A DNA stretch of 64,000 nucleotides from positions 1 to 64,000 of the forward strand of contig CACEHM010000003.1 in NCBI GenBank assembly GCA_902559355.1. The letters run 5' to 3'. Source of the DNA: an uncultured Gammaproteobacteria bacterium. GTDB taxonomy: Bacteria; Pseudomonadota; Gammaproteobacteria; GCA-002705445; GCA-002716945. Numbering within the stretch: position 1 is the first letter of the stretch; each line of letters starts with the position of its first letter. The notes below the pieces were generated by a model. The model ran no database searches, was not told the origin of the DNA, and worked only from the letters and a program-made list of their open reading frames with translations. Below are positions 28,886-33,614 of this stretch, piece by piece. A program made the position numbers and the translations under genes.

Positions 28886-28904
28886 TCGTCCCCAAGGGAC
28901 TCGA
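28886..28904. repeat. attL core
   Basis: The 13 bases TCGTCCCCAAGGG match the tRNA-Glu 3' end exactly at 33541-33553. The next bases, ACTCGA, match tRNA GATTCGA apart from one missing G and a C/T change, so about 19-20 nt are related. The copy lies 177 nt upstream of the integrase start, as expected for a site-specific insertion. Confidence 0.75.
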
Positions 28905-29026
28905 TATAATTTACATTATACACTCGATTTGAACAAAGCAACGAAATATTACTTTGATTAATGTTGAATTCATTGGGAAAATTGTATGTAGAAATATTTT
29001 AGTCTCTCGATTGAGCGCTCATAAAA

Positions 29027-29048
29027 TGGGGGGTCAAGTGGGGGGTCA
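29027..29048. repeat. Left arm-type integrase sites
   Basis: Two direct copies of TGGGGGGTCA at 29027-29036 and 29039-29048, 12 nt apart, just upstream of the integrase gene. Copies in the same orientation and spacing are found at the right end (33465-33486). Such G-rich paired repeats beside P4-type integrases are usual arm-binding sites. The ribosome-binding site of int lies just after them. Confidence 0.7.
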
Positions 29049-29062
29049 GGAGTGAATAGGAA

Positions 29063-30271
29063 ATGACAGTCAAACTAACTGACTTAAAAATCAAAAACCT
29101 CATACCTGAGGACAAGAAGTACAAGGTATGGGATGCAGTAGTCTCAGGGATGTATGTCCTTGTTAGACCCTCAGGCAGCAGAATGTTTGTCCTAAGGGTT
29201 AGGGAATTCAATAAACAAAAAGAAATTACTATAGGCGCGTATGGTGTTTGGAATCTTGCAGATGCTAGAGCAAAAGCGCTTGAGATAAAGTTAGCACATT
29301 CCCAGGGTGAGCAAGTATCACGTACTTACGCAGCATCAACGAAAGCAGAAAAGTATAAATCTCTCGAGGACGTTTGCATCAATTGGTTAGCAAACTACAA
29401 GCTTGAGTATCCTAGAAAGCACAGAGAAACTGAGAATCGAATGAAGAAACATTTGTTTCCATTCTTCAAAGGCAGAACAATCCAGGAGCTAAAACGACAA
29501 GACATTAAAGATTTTATTACTCACATGAAACGCAAAGGCATTGAGCATACTGCGATAAGAATAAAACAAAACCTTGTGCACGTATGGGAGGATGCAAGAG
29601 ATAGAGAACTCATATCTGAAAATATCATTGTTGGTATTAAACTCAAAAAACCAAAGCATCAGCACCAACAAGCAGAACTGAATACTGAAAAATTTGCACA
29701 GATTCTAAATCGCATTGATACCTACAAATATTCCAACATTCATCAGGAAGTAGGGATTAAATTAATGGCTCACTTATTTGCGAGACACTCAGAACTTACT
29801 GCAATGAAATGGAGTGATATTGATTTCACGAAACGCAAATGGGAATACATGCAGACTAAGACTAACGATATCAGATTAGTCCCATTATCTAAGCAAGTTA
29901 TTGCGTTATTGAATACATTGAAGATTGTCGGCTCTGCCGATCAATCGGATTATGTATTTCCTAGTGATGTATCTAAGACAGGACATATCTCATCATTCAG
30001 AAATGAATTTGTGAAGATAGTAAAACCTGAGGAACATTCGATACATGGTTTCAGAGCAGTAGCACGTACATTCATGCAAGAAGATTTGAAATATAGTCCT
30101 GATGTCATTGAACATCAATTAGGTCATGTTGTTCCAGATAGATTGGGCGCAGCATACAACAGAACAAAGCATCTTGAAGATAGAACTAAGATGATGACTG
30201 ATTGGAGCAATTACCTAGATAGAATCAAACGTGGTGTTAAAGAAATCAAATTGGTAAACAAGGATGACTGA
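29063..30271 (+). CDS. int: P4-type tyrosine recombinase/integrase
   Basis: A 402-residue integrase. The N-terminal arm-binding domain (DUF4102: LTDLKIKNLIPEDKKYKVWD) is followed by a core-binding domain and the catalytic domain with FARHSELTAMKWSDID (first Arg), SIHGFRAVARTF (HxxR) and LGHVVPDRLGAAYNR (GH and the Tyr nucleophile). AGGAAATG precedes the start. It sits next to attL and reads into the element. It recombines at the tRNA-Glu 3' end. Confidence 0.94.
   Translation: MTVKLTDLKIKNLIPEDKKYKVWDAVVSGMYVLVRPSGSRMFVLRVREFNKQKEITIGAYGVWNLADARAKALEIKLAHSQGEQVSRTYAASTKAEKYKSLEDVCINWLANYKLEYPRKHRETENRMKKHLFPFFKGRTIQELKRQDIKDFITHMKRKGIEHTAIRIKQNLVHVWEDARDRELISENIIVGIKLKKPKHQHQQAELNTEKFAQILNRIDTYKYSNIHQEVGIKLMAHLFARHSELTAMKWSDIDFTKRKWEYMQTKTNDIRLVPLSKQVIALLNTLKIVGSADQSDYVFPSDVSKTGHISSFRNEFVKIVKPEEHSIHGFRAVARTFMQEDLKYSPDVIEHQLGHVVPDRLGAAYNRTKHLEDRTKMMTDWSNYLDRIKRGVKEIKLVNKDD
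29928..29943. repeat. 16-nt hairpin repeat, copy 1 (inside int)
   Basis: TCGGCTCTGCCGATCA occurs here and again, exactly, at 32947-32962 inside the TerS-like gene. Its first 13 bases form a hairpin (TCGGC, loop TCT, GCCGA). A relative with the same stem but another loop lies at 31372-31398. The repeat stands out for its G+C in AT-rich DNA. Confidence 0.6.
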
Positions 30272-30953
30272 AGATAAATATTTTGTAAGCCTTGAAGATA
30301 GAGAAGTATGGGACGACTTTGAGCAAGGACTGTTAGATACTTACAAGAAATATCCTACAGTAGAAAATGCAGAGAATATTTTGCTGCATTATAAATCCTA
30401 TATCGGAACACATTGTAGACCATGTCAGGCATTACAAGATTGGATAGATTCAGGACTAAAAGCTTATCTTGAAAATGATGACCCTAAGATTAGAAACCCA
30501 ATTGAAAAAGCATTAGGGTTATCAGGCATCAAAGGACAAAAGAATTCTAAAGACCAGGAACACGCAACTGTTCACATGTATGTTTGGCAGAGATTATTCA
30601 TGGGTGAGACTAAACAACATGCATTTCTCTCAATAGCTGATGAATTAAAAATGGGCGCAGATAAAGTCAGAATCACATTTGATGATTGCTCATTCACAGT
30701 CAAAGACAAAGAAACAGGTGAAGAATTAAGATTCATGGATATTGAAAAATATGATAGAGGAATTAATGCATGGATGCTGCGCGTAGGTAGAGGATTAAAT
30801 CCTAGTGAAAGCAGAATCGTTTGTGAAGTCTTAAACGAAAGAAGAAAAGCAATTGAAAAAAATAATCCTAAATCACAATCACAAGTACTACCAATGCATT
30901 ACAGCGCAGAACTCTATAAAAACCAAATAAAGAAATCTAAAGATAAAAAATAA
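30264..30953 (+). CDS. Hypothetical satellite protein
   Basis: A 229-residue, charged protein without membrane segments. It overlaps the end of int by 8 nt, so it is likely translated with it. A short CRPCQ motif near residue 55 and a basic C-terminal tail (NQIKKSKDKK) are the only features I can point to. No family recognised. Size and place resemble accessory or replication-related genes of satellites, but nothing in it proves a role. Confidence 0.6.
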   Translation: MTEDKYFVSLEDREVWDDFEQGLLDTYKKYPTVENAENILLHYKSYIGTHCRPCQALQDWIDSGLKAYLENDDPKIRNPIEKALGLSGIKGQKNSKDQEHATVHMYVWQRLFMGETKQHAFLSIADELKMGADKVRITFDDCSFTVKDKETGEELRFMDIEKYDRGINAWMLRVGRGLNPSESRIVCEVLNERRKAIEKNNPKSQSQVLPMHYSAELYKNQIKKSKDKK

Positions 30954-30978
30954 CGAGCTGTAAGCACCCTTAACCCCC

Positions 30979-31087
30979 TATACGAATATGTTTGTATAGT
31001 ATATGTCCACTCCACTCACTATCGGGGGAAATAACTTCCGAGATTCTTGCGCAACTGTCTTCATTAATTAACCTGTATATCAATACA
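30979..31087. promoter_or_regulatory. Operator-like inverted repeats upstream of alpA
   Basis: Two inverted repeats lie in the 181-nt gap before the AlpA-like gene. TATACGAA (30979-30986) faces TTTGTATA (30991-30998) with one mismatch. TGTAT (31074-31078) faces ATACA (31083-31087) exactly. A strong AAGGAGG ribosome site follows at 31124-31130. They could be binding sites for a repressor or for AlpA. No fixed promoter boxes are claimed. Confidence 0.4.
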
Positions 31088-31134
31088 TATCGCATGAGAT
31101 ATTAAATGCAATTAAACACCTTTAAGGAGGATTA

Positions 31135-31359
31135 ATGCACGAAGAAAAAAAAGAAAAAAAGATAGTCTACAAACGAGACTTGAATGTAACCAAAGTATAT
31201 CGAATGAAAGAATTGCCTGATGTTGTCAGCGCAAAAGCATCAACGATTTACACATGGATACGTGAGGGCAAATTCCCAGCACCTAAGAAGATGAATCGTA
31301 TTTCAATTTGGAGTAAAGATGTTGTCGATAATTGGGTGGAGGAGAAATTGTCAGCTTAA
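31135..31359 (+). CDS. alpA: AlpA-family regulator/excisionase-like
   Basis: A 74-residue protein with the AlpA/MerR-like winged-helix core VSAKASTIYTWIREGKFPAPKK and WSKDVVDNWVEEKL. AlpA proteins activate excision in P4-like elements and switch on satellites after phage infection. It has a perfect AAGGAGG ribosome site 4 nt upstream. The N-terminal 20 residues are rich in Lys and Glu. Its place after the int gene suits a switch protein. Confidence 0.83.
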   Translation: MHEEKKEKKIVYKRDLNVTKVYRMKELPDVVSAKASTIYTWIREGKFPAPKKMNRISIWSKDVVDNWVEEKLSA

Positions 31360-31371
31360 TTAATCTTCTGT

Positions 31372-31398
31372 GAGGTTGCCGATTTGATCGGCAGCCTC
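31372..31398 (+). repeat. 12-bp stem hairpin (TGCCGAT...ATCGGCA)
   Basis: GAGGTTGCCGAT faces ATCGGCAGCCTC across a TTG loop, with a single G-T wobble, between alpA and the next gene. The core TGCCGAT/ATCGGCA shares its stem with the two 16-nt hairpins in int and terS. No T-run follows, so a classic terminator is unlikely. Attenuation, RNA stability or a DNA recognition site are alternatives. Confidence 0.55.
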
Positions 31399-31436
31399 GT
31401 AGAAATATTGTCAGGAATTGACAGGAGAATTATAGC

Positions 31437-31736
31437 ATGGCTATAACGAAACAAAAGAATACATTAGGGTGGCATCATCCTGATGAAGAATGTCAGGTAA
31501 TGGAAGATATGACATCTCATGTAGAAGATAAAATCTTTGATGAAATCATACCTACCTTTGCTGAAGAACTCGCTGCTGCAACATCTATTGATGTTAATGA
31601 TTTAAAAAATTGGAATGAATCATATTTCAATAAATGCATTGATACACGCATTGCAGTCAAGTACGCATTGATGAAAATGTATTTCAACGAAATGCTAGTA
31701 GATAACATTGGAGGTGCGTATGACAGAGTCAGCTAA
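31437..31736 (+). CDS. Small hypothetical satellite protein
   Basis: A 99-residue acidic protein, with AGGAGAA ahead of the start. No family recognised and no membrane segment. Its end overlaps the following gene by 17 nt, so the two are probably coupled. It belongs to the element by position and is likely expressed with alpA. Confidence 0.55.
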   Translation: MAITKQKNTLGWHHPDEECQVMEDMTSHVEDKIFDEIIPTFAEELAAATSIDVNDLKNWNESYFNKCIDTRIAVKYALMKMYFNEMLVDNIGGAYDRVS

Positions 31737-32223
31737 TAATCATAAACAAAGGGGGATGCCTTGGTGGAGGCAATCTCATAGTGAAATACTAGCTGATATG
31801 AATCTTCGTAGCTGTTTCCCTGAGGGGAAATGGCTCGAGGGTTTAGGCTTATACATGATTCTAAAAGCTTTAACGTCAGCGCAATATGAAAAGGATGAGC
31901 CTAGCTCATGCACGTTTGCAATTGGAGTTAATTATTTACTAGGTCAATGCGAGGGTAACATCAGCAAAGAAACTTTGTTGGATTATTGTAATCGCATGAA
32001 GATGCGTAATGTCATTGATAATTTTGTGGTGGAAGATTTTATATTAACTATCACGATATATCGCATCTATGATGAAGTAGACAAGTATCGAATGGATAAT
32101 CGTTATGCAGAATCACCAAAGCAAAAAAGCGAAAGAAAAGAAAAAGAAAAGGTATTAAAGCCTGGTACAGATGAACACTTCAAAGAGCAGCAAAAAATAC
32201 ACAACATCCCTAGGATTCATTGA
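31720..32223 (+). CDS. Hypothetical satellite protein
   Basis: A 167-residue protein from the ATG at 31720, chosen because GGAGG at 31710-31714 sits right ahead of it; a longer frame would start 12 nt earlier. The middle has the segment KWLEGLGLYMILKAL and LLDYCNRMKMRNVIDNF, which looks like helical DNA- or protein-binding sequence. The C terminus is highly charged (KSERKEKEKVLK). I cannot assign a family. It overlaps the preceding gene. Confidence 0.55.
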   Translation: MTESANNHKQRGMPWWRQSHSEILADMNLRSCFPEGKWLEGLGLYMILKALTSAQYEKDEPSSCTFAIGVNYLLGQCEGNISKETLLDYCNRMKMRNVIDNFVVEDFILTITIYRIYDEVDKYRMDNRYAESPKQKSERKEKEKVLKPGTDEHFKEQQKIHNIPRIH

Positions 32224-32382
32224 TGTAAGTAACATGCAAGTAACAGGGCACTACATTACATAACAAGTTTTATACTATTAGGGGAATGAATATATATAGG
32301 GATTTAATATTAAATAAATATATCCTCACTAAGCAATTGGTGGGGGTATGTTAAAATATAAATATTAACTAGGAGATACACT

Positions 32383-32637
32383 ATGGATAAAATAACAACA
32401 CCAATGGCAGTACTTATTTCTGGAGTATTAATATTTATTGGTTTATTGATTTTAAGTAGTAGCTTGAAAGATGAATATTATTATCATGTAGATACTACGT
32501 CTACAAGTGCAGCATGGTTGGTTAAAACACATAAAGTTACAGGATTATCATGTTATACAAGTGCTAATACAGTAGACGTTTTTAAAGATATTCCAGAGGG
32601 TAGAGATAGTAAATGGGTTTGTATTGATACTAAATAA
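32383..32637 (+). CDS. Small single-pass membrane protein
   Basis: An 84-residue protein with one transmembrane helix (PMAVLISGVLIFIGLLILSS) and a polar C-terminal part with two cysteines, likely outside the cytoplasm. AGGAGATACACT precedes the ATG. No family recognised. It may act at the membrane, for example in superinfection control, but this is a guess from position only. The 159-nt gap before it shows only AT-rich sequence. Confidence 0.55.
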   Translation: MDKITTPMAVLISGVLIFIGLLILSSSLKDEYYYHVDTTSTSAAWLVKTHKVTGLSCYTSANTVDVFKDIPEGRDSKWVCIDTK

Positions 32638-32642
32638 AGATT

Positions 32643-33068
32643 ATGCCTAGATTGATTGATAAAGAAAAAGAAAGAATATTTATAAAAACATTCACGCAAA
32701 CAGGTAATGCTACCTACAGCGCACGTGTATGTGGTTATGATTCTAACCCAAGACAAATGGGTAGTTACTTAAAACACAAGAACATGGATGAAATTGAAAC
32801 TAACATCAAGATGAAATTAGATTCCATGACAGGCGCAGCAATTAGCACAGTACAAAACTTACTTAATTCCAAAAGCGATATGTGTAAATTGAAAGCAGCA
32901 GAATATATTCTTAAATGTGGTGGGTATGATAAACCTAGTGCGAGTATCGGCTCTGCCGATCACGAGCACATGAACAAGTTAAGTGACGAAGAACTAGCAA
33001 ATAAGATAATTGAACTAGCATCACAAAACGAATTCATCATGAAAAAACTACAACAAAAACTAAGTTAA
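32643..33068 (+). CDS. Terminase small subunit-like protein
   Basis: The 141-residue protein has an N-terminal helix-turn-helix like terminase small subunits: RIFIKTFTQTGNATYSARVCGYD, then QNLLNSKSDMCKLKAAEYILKCGG. Small terminase subunits choose the DNA that a phage packages. In satellites, TerS redirects packaging of the helper phage. No large subunit is present here, so if functional it must use a helper phage's terminase. The 16-nt hairpin repeat lies inside it. Confidence 0.7.
   Translation: MPRLIDKEKERIFIKTFTQTGNATYSARVCGYDSNPRQMGSYLKHKNMDEIETNIKMKLDSMTGAAISTVQNLLNSKSDMCKLKAAEYILKCGGYDKPSASIGSADHEHMNKLSDEELANKIIELASQNEFIMKKLQQKLS
32947..32962. repeat. 16-nt hairpin repeat, copy 2 (inside terS-like gene)
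   Basis: Exact second copy of TCGGCTCTGCCGATCA (first at 29928-29943). With the base before it, the hairpin arms grow to ATCGGC and GCCGAT. The two proteins share only GSAD at this point, so codon chance alone is possible but the match extends through both codon boundaries. Confidence 0.6.
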
Positions 33069-33177
33069 TTTATCTTTGACAGTAAAAATTACAGAAAAGA
33101 CTCGTATATCTACATTAACAGACAGCAAGTAACGTTGAAGACATTTGGTAATTAGATTTAGAGGTGGGTAGCCACAC

Positions 33178-33199
33178 ACTCACTCTGCTGAGTTTTTTT
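33178..33199 (+). terminator. Rho-independent terminator after terS-like gene
   Basis: ACTCA (33178-33182), loop of six bases, TGAGT (33189-33193), then a T-run to 33199. It follows the plus-strand satellite genes after about 110 nt. It overlaps the end of the minus-strand zinc-ribbon gene at 33180. Confidence 0.6.
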
Positions 33200-33380
33200 G
33201 AATTGGAGGACAATTGATATCTCCATAAGAGCAAAACACACAACAATCACCAGCTTTAGCTTTTATAACTGTTTTGCAATTTGTACACTCTAAAAAATAT
33301 TGACAAAAAGTCGAGGGCATCGTGATAGTTTTTTCATGACTGCAGTGTGGACAAACGAGTTTAGATTTATGATTAATCAT
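33180..33380 (-). CDS. Cysteine-rich zinc-ribbon protein (GDCCVFCSYGD type)
   Basis: A 66-residue protein from the ATG giving MINHKSKL; a longer form extends 13 residues upstream. It has two CxxC pairs (CPHC and CTNC), then GDCCVFCSYGDINCPPIQ, which resembles a short proteobacterial protein family seen near metal-resistance genes. It probably binds zinc. It lies on the opposite strand at the right end of the element, so it may be cargo. Exact role unknown. Confidence 0.65.
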   Translation of the reverse strand: MINHKSKLVCPHCSHEKTITMPSTFCQYFLECTNCKTVIKAKAGDCCVFCSYGDINCPPIQKNSAE

Positions 33381-33464
33381 ATCTATAATTCTATATAAAT
33401 TTAAAAATAACATTAACAAATTCGCACACTTTTCTTTACAAATATTTTTTGTTTTTAAATTAAG

Positions 33465-33486
33465 TAGGGGGTCAAATGGGGGGTCA
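33465..33486. repeat. Right arm-type integrase sites
   Basis: TAGGGGGTCA at 33465-33474 and TGGGGGGTCA at 33477-33486, again 12 nt apart and in the same orientation as the left pair at 29027-29048. A further direct repeat TTAAGGGCTA occurs at 33495-33504 and 33518-33527, between these sites and the tRNA, and could be an additional recombination protein site. Confidence 0.65.
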
Positions 33487-33540
33487 AAATATTGTTAAGG
33501 GCTACAAGCTTTGTTTATTAAGGGCTATTTAAAGCTTGAC

Positions 33541-33560
33541 TCGTCCCCAAGGGGATTCGA
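33541..33560. repeat. attR core in tRNA-Glu
   Basis: Matches the left core at 28886-28904. The shared 13 bases cover the 3' acceptor strand of tRNA-Glu and the next bases enter the T-arm. Because the tRNA sequence stays complete here, insertion leaves the gene functional. Confidence 0.75.
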
Positions 33561-33614
33561 ACCCCTGTTGCCGCCGTGAAAGGGCAGTGTCCTAGGCCTC
33601 TAGACGATGGGGAC
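33542..33614 (-). tRNA. gltT: tRNA-Glu (anticodon TTC)
   Basis: Reading the minus strand gives GTCCCCATCG..., a complete cloverleaf of 73 nt: acceptor pairs GTCCCC/GGGGAC with discriminator G, a D-arm GTCTAGAGGCC, the anticodon loop CTTTCAC (anticodon TTC), and the T-arm CAGGGGTTCGAATCCCCT. No CCA is encoded. It is the insertion site of the element on its 3' side. Confidence 0.95.

Follow-up and report, generated by a model that had tools for sequence, protein, structure and literature searches.

A 4.7-kb integrative element encoding an integrase, AlpA and a terminase small subunit in an uncultured marine gammaproteobacterium is probably a minimal phage satellite

Phage-inducible chromosomal minimalist islands (PICMIs) are satellites of Vibrionaceae with a prototype of 6.1 kb and six genes, in which alpA is sufficient for excision, iolg is needed, and the known helpers are virulent phages (PMC10803314). 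The iolg gene overlaps the int stop codon and occurs in 21 of 35 PICMI subfamilies (PMC10803314). In PICIs alpA is induced by the helper, and some of these islands carry a terS gene that redirects packaging (PMC6092414). Here we describe an element of 4,655 bp at positions 28886-33553 of a 64,000-nucleotide stretch from an uncultured Gammaproteobacteria bacterium (GCA_902559355.1, contig CACEHM010000003.1; hereafter the window), which is integrated in tRNA-Glu(TTC) and combines a tyrosine integrase (Int) and an AlpA-family regulator with a terminase small subunit (TerS). We consider it likely that this element is a minimal phage satellite that excises by means of Int and AlpA and, through a TerS of its own, diverts the packaging motor of an infecting phage.

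The boundaries of the element are defined by an exact 13-bp direct repeat, TCGTCCCCAAGGG, with attL (33541-33553) formed by the 3′ end of the tRNA-Glu gene and attR (28886-28898) by a displaced copy of that end identical at 13/13 positions. The attR junction also borders a related copy in the congeneric genome G005, and the target gene itself, called by ARAGORN and Rfam on the minus strand at 33542-33614, is kept intact. Near the two ends lie paired predicted arm-type sites for the integrase, a left pair at 29026-29048 (ATGGGGGGTCAAGTGGGGGGTCA) and a right pair at 33466-33486, that share a repeat with the motif GGGGGTCA. This motif occurs four times in the window and exclusively within the two paired sites, a restriction beyond chance and the pattern expected of integrase arm sites, and an arm-like motif pair is also present in a sibling element of congener G004 (L032). 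Beyond attR, the segment 28720-28886 aligns with 33430-33541 including the arm-like pair, at a score equalled by 11/1000 Markov shuffles, which at most suggests that a family member once integrated here in tandem and left a decayed relic of its right (tRNA-proximal) end. All open reading frames (ORFs) of the element are intact and nearly all share one strand, with a GDCCVxC gene opposite. Pfam and PHROG scans of these ORFs recognised no gene for capsid, tail or the terminase large subunit (TerL), and no relaxase or other conjugation gene.

The gene that most directly links the element to phage packaging is terS (32643-33068, plus strand), which encodes a protein of 141 aa. The window TerS matches PHROG 2538 (TerS; E 6e-6) and reaches E 9e-4 against Pfam Terminase_2, under the curated cut-off; the sibling TerS of G004 scores above that cut-off, and 7/7 scanned members of the TerS family match the domain. 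A family profile composed of the window TerS, the sibling and five viral relatives matches the TerS structures of phages PaP3 (6w7t, E 2.9e-11) and NV1 (7joq, E 5.4e-10) in the PDB. An AlphaFold model of moderate quality (mean pLDDT 73, from 7 sequences) has TerS proteins as its top 13 Foldseek matches (best E 3e-3), led again by PaP3 and NV1, and the predicted protein keeps the full TerS fold beyond a helix-turn-helix alone. Homology and modelled fold together firmly identify this gene as a TerS homologue. A perfect 16-bp GC-rich repeat, TCGGCTCTGCCGATCA, occurs in frame in both int (29928-29943) and terS (32947-32962); whole-genome matches to its reverse-complement pattern TGATCGGCAGNSC are those two sites only, and the terS copy is retained in G005 and in a further congener, G008. 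These repeats are a possible packaging or regulatory site.

The int gene (29063-30271, plus strand) encodes a P4-type integrase of 402 aa that scores above the Pfam gathering thresholds for Phage_integrase, Arm-DNA-bind_3 and Phage_int_M, matches PHROG 1 (E 1.5e-54) and is 29% identical to P4 Int. The alpA gene (31135-31359, plus strand) encodes a 74-aa AlpA-family regulator or excisionase above the cut-off of Pfam PF05930, with a match to PHROG 66 (E 1e-7). A lone weak match to mad1, considered as a sign of defence cargo, falls on AlpA and reflects the shared helix-turn-helix. Downstream of alpA, a strong RNA hairpin at 31366-31404 (plus strand; -26.7 kcal/mol, z -7.1) is a possible terminator or attenuator. 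The first-pass annotation had described an element at 28886-33553 with a target-site duplication, an integrase, an AlpA-like switch and a terS-like gene, lacking capsid, tail, replication and large terminase genes. This anatomy holds throughout: the repeats are exact at both ends, Int and AlpA pass Pfam thresholds, the terS-like gene is a genuine TerS homologue by PHROG, family profile and predicted fold, and none of the missing classes was found among the ORFs with Pfam, PHROG or NCBIfam.

Comparison across the host genus reveals a family of such elements. The sibling in G004 spans ~4.4 kb in tRNA-Arg(CCT), is bounded by a 12-bp end repeat, CGGGCGGGGAGG, and conserves the int/alpA/terS order with identities of 34%, 48% and 46% to the respective window proteins. 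At the same tRNA-Glu site, G005 carries an internally deleted copy of 0.93 kb (L033 8935-9869), which retains the two ends together with the cargo gene; a 10-bp GCAGCAGAAT repeat, present at window 29175 and 32895, brackets the deletion. This copy aligns with the window in two segments totalling 1,000 bp, one of 686 bp (98.3% identity) and one of 314 bp (98.4%), whereas the flanking chromosome is 71.4% identical over 2.47 kb, and the disparity indicates that the element has moved recently between bacterial species. The deletion may be an artefact of single-cell amplification or assembly, and the 98% identity stands regardless; alternatively, the 0.93-kb form may be mobilised in trans. In G008 the same tRNA carries a diverged right end, and a terS fragment lies at the end of another contig. 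Small ORFs and a 484-aa protein lie between that fragment and the tRNA end in G008 (L148 142-2490, L034 94-700), where they probably occupy a cargo slot. In three congeners, G002, G004 and G007, tRNA-Glu is free of the element. In G002, the nearest congener, the two outer flanks, which correspond to window 26707 and 33541, are separated by ~0.25 kb, which places the neighbouring methyltransferase genes in the variable island as well. The first-pass annotation had named tRNA-Glu of other genomes and the empty sites of close relatives as the places to look for this element's traces, and both agree with its account of the insertion.

These relatives also bear on whether the element is instead a decayed prophage, in which int, alpA, terS and the ends are the remnant of a temperate phage whose structural genes have been lost. 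Such decay would fit the phage-type TerS and Int, the degraded copies in G005 and G008 and the cargo-like genes at one end, but the window element and its sibling, which are independent elements in different tRNAs, agree in compact gene order and in size, have intact ORFs and show no structural remnant, and the G005 copy points to spread with this gene set or an even smaller one. Phages with this type of TerS also encode TerL and structural proteins. Among the 369 gammaproteobacterial genomes sampled, TerS relatives are rare, with a single, weak match outside the genus; an initial TerS scan of the genome contigs returned no match. We therefore regard prophage decay as improbable.

We favour a satellite that borrows its motor, and the phage side offers candidates for the lender. 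A search of IMG/VR with a two-row TerS alignment found relatives at 79 loci (35-46% identity), with TerL present in 6/8 of the records checked. The TerL examined is 60% identical to that of Pelagibacter phage Baldr, which carries a TerS relative too, and ~57% and ~51% identical to those of Vibrio and Pseudomonas phages. No Terminase_6N was detected in five genomes of the host family, including the host's own (some of them incomplete), and together with the rarity of TerS in gammaproteobacteria this indicates that the motor would come from an infecting phage. The phages with a matching terminase that had been anticipated exist in so far as TerS relatives stand beside TerL in marine phage contigs, at a distance that leaves the helper presumptive.

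The packaged 4.7-kb DNA expected in viral data did not materialise: no contig in IMG/VR has the end signature of the element or a close integrase, and single-sequence scans of viral contigs with ORF2, TerS and Int returned no matches. This result would fit an integrative element that moves by other means, be it by generalised transduction, in vesicles or with the aid of a conjugative helper, and whose TerS regulates by binding DNA or interferes with phages; a DNA-binding TerS could decoy the helper's motor, and the element has no recognised replication gene. Against such mobility stand the lack of a relaxase or conjugation gene among the ORFs, the conservation of TerS alongside int and alpA in the sibling with a full predicted TerS fold, and the precedent of SaPIs and PICIs for TerS in packaging, and we hold this explanation to be rather unlikely.

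A possible switch lies in the alpA leader (30965-31134, plus strand), which aligns with the sibling leader at a local score of 79, where shuffled sequences reach at most 53, consistent with a shared mode of control. Within this conserved block, the sequence CCACTCACTATCGGGGGA matches a T7-type promoter core at 15/18 positions, the best match in the window and possibly a chance one. Transcription of the alpA operon by a T7-like phage RNA polymerase would make the helper an autographivirus and not a PaP3/Baldr-type phage, but the sibling block matches at ~13/18 (judged by eye on aligned sequences), and no T7-type polymerase was found in the TerS-related phages, with T7 as positive control. We accordingly give the promoter resemblance little weight and consider a T7-like polymerase very improbable here. 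Promoter arrays were also tried as a helper signature; the scan of IMG/VR revealed no such arrays and yielded three unrelated groups at chance-compatible levels, one of them a phage transfer-messenger RNA (tmRNA) gene. That group (L244-L255; for example L251 6810-7126) consists of phage contigs with an ARAGORN-called tmRNA and the tag ANANTYAIAA.

By analogy with helper-induced alpA and terS-based packaging in PICIs, and with AlpA and iolg in PICMI excision, we infer a life cycle in which the satellite would be induced, replicated, packaged and transduced through phage infection. In the resting state the element would remain integrated and quiet in tRNA-Glu. Infection would raise alpA expression, and AlpA with Int, perhaps aided by the overlapping ORF2, would excise the element through recombination of the att repeats. 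Amplification of the excised DNA would probably fall for the most part to enzymes of the helper or the host, and the satellite TerS would bind a site in this DNA and dock it on the helper TerL and procapsid. Helper particles would then carry the DNA into another cell, and Int would reinsert it into the tRNA there.

Several observations weigh against this proposal. No primase, helicase or replication initiator was recognised in the element ORFs with Pfam, PHROG or NCBIfam, and prim homologues occur in most satellites (PMC10803314); no capsid-remodelling or interference gene was recognised in the element either. The missing viral contigs count here as well, as does the search for a packaging site common to the element and the TerS-related phages, which found none. 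The phage TerS relatives are 35-46% identical at most, and the identity of the helper is correspondingly conjectural. Two of the four family loci in the genus, those of G005 and G008, are degraded, which weakens the case that the window copy is active. A phage satellite, as the first-pass annotation proposed, remains the best reading of the locus, with packaging as its deduced component. More speculatively, the element might represent an under-5-kb satellite lineage that dropped its replication genes, keeps only Int, AlpA and a private TerS, and depends on virulent marine phages for replication, motor and capsid. In such a lineage the alpA leader would sense the helper and the 0.9-kb form might be carried in trans; this fuller scenario is a tentative one that we think doubtful as a whole.

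ORF2 (30264-30953, plus strand, 229 aa) lies in the position of PICMI iolg, shares 8 nt with the end of int and has no family match in Pfam, PHROG or NCBIfam. It is 18-26% identical to chromosomal homologues in the genus, and by sequence it is a divergent relative of that chromosomal family. The family itself, of ~186 aa and with no assigned function, occurs in two neighbourhoods across the genus (L033 10446-11006, L035 7796-8359, L036 7985-8542, L037 7920-8477, L038 8377-8931 and L039 1967-2521). Profile comparison ruled out homology with the gene at the same place in the sibling, which has a different ORF there. ORF4 (31437-31736, plus strand, 99 aa) is unassigned in function and has no dependable match in the three family collections. 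ORF5 (31720-32223, plus strand, 167 aa) shares its position with a 220-aa sibling ORF to which it is weakly similar, and a role in DNA binding or replication initiation is a possible lead suggested by position. A phage replisome-organiser was rejected for ORF5, with no usable Pfam, NCBIfam or PHROG match and a poor model (pLDDT 45). ORF6 (32383-32637, plus strand, 84 aa) encodes a small putative membrane protein with a hydrophobic N-terminus; its weak PHROG holin match (E 0.0095) is not relied on. The cargo gene (33180-33419, minus strand, first ATG 33380) encodes a GDCCVxC zinc-ribbon-like protein (NCBIfam NF041374, E 1e-25). The 289-bp end that carries it is 98% identical in DNA between the window element and the tRNA-Arg sibling, which indicates recent module exchange, and the 3′ slot of the element carries exchangeable cargo.

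The host had been taken for a methylotroph, a view we do not uphold: no PQQ methanol/ethanol dehydrogenase reaches the family cut-off in its genome (93% complete), and its named relatives, among them AG-894-P10 (CABYTF010000003.1; to judge by its name a single-cell genome), are uncultured marine gammaproteobacteria. Its GTDB order comprises one family within the genome collection examined. If the satellite assignment is correct, the hosts of phage satellites come to include a genus of uncultured marine bacteria whose genomes are small (~1 Mb), the element is among the smallest TerS-bearing satellites, and marine phages with a PaP3/Baldr-type terminase are named as the helper class. With 98% identity set against 71% in the surrounding chromosome, the sequences themselves give direct evidence that such elements pass between species in the ocean.

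Set beside the described systems, the element resembles PICMIs in its tiny size, marine setting, lack of capsid-remodelling genes and order of int, an int-overlapping gene (ORF2 begins 8 nt inside int) and alpA, but it has no DUF3987/DUF5906 primase detected with Pfam, PHROG or NCBIfam, sits in tRNA-Glu and not at fis, carries the terS that PICMIs lack, and belongs to a different host family. With Gram-negative PICIs it shares int and alpA, a specific att site, the absence of structural and lysis genes and, for some PICIs, terS; it differs in having no recognisable pri-rep module, in measuring only 4.7 kb and in its presumptive helper. P4-like satellites (PMC8628076) have the P4-type integrase and AlpA/Vis in common with it, but no psu, delta, sid, epsilon or alpha homologue was found in the element by Pfam or PHROG, and it is about half their size. 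The PaP3/NV1/LUZ24-type phages and Baldr match its TerS in sequence and fold family; they are whole phages with TerL, whereas the element has TerS alone, and neither a TerL, capsid or tail gene in its ORFs nor a Terminase_6N in the genome marks it as a prophage. VEIMEs, as far as PMC10803314 and PMC11389934 describe them, are satellite-like integrative elements of marine bacteria, a description that the att sites, Int and marine relatives fit; they are encapsidated in virions, a property that is predicted for the element, whose end signature and close integrases are absent from IMG/VR. Its small size had suggested a candidate new family, and what holds is that the lineage is new while its kind is already known, size by itself being no novelty beside the PICMI prototype. 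The element would work like a PICI, PICMI or VEIME and belongs to none of them on the features tested: it is separated from PICMIs by primase and fis, from P4 by psu, delta, sid and alpha and from PICIs by pri-rep, and encapsidation, the defining property of VEIMEs, is putative for it. We class it with the marine phage satellites and assign it to no named family.

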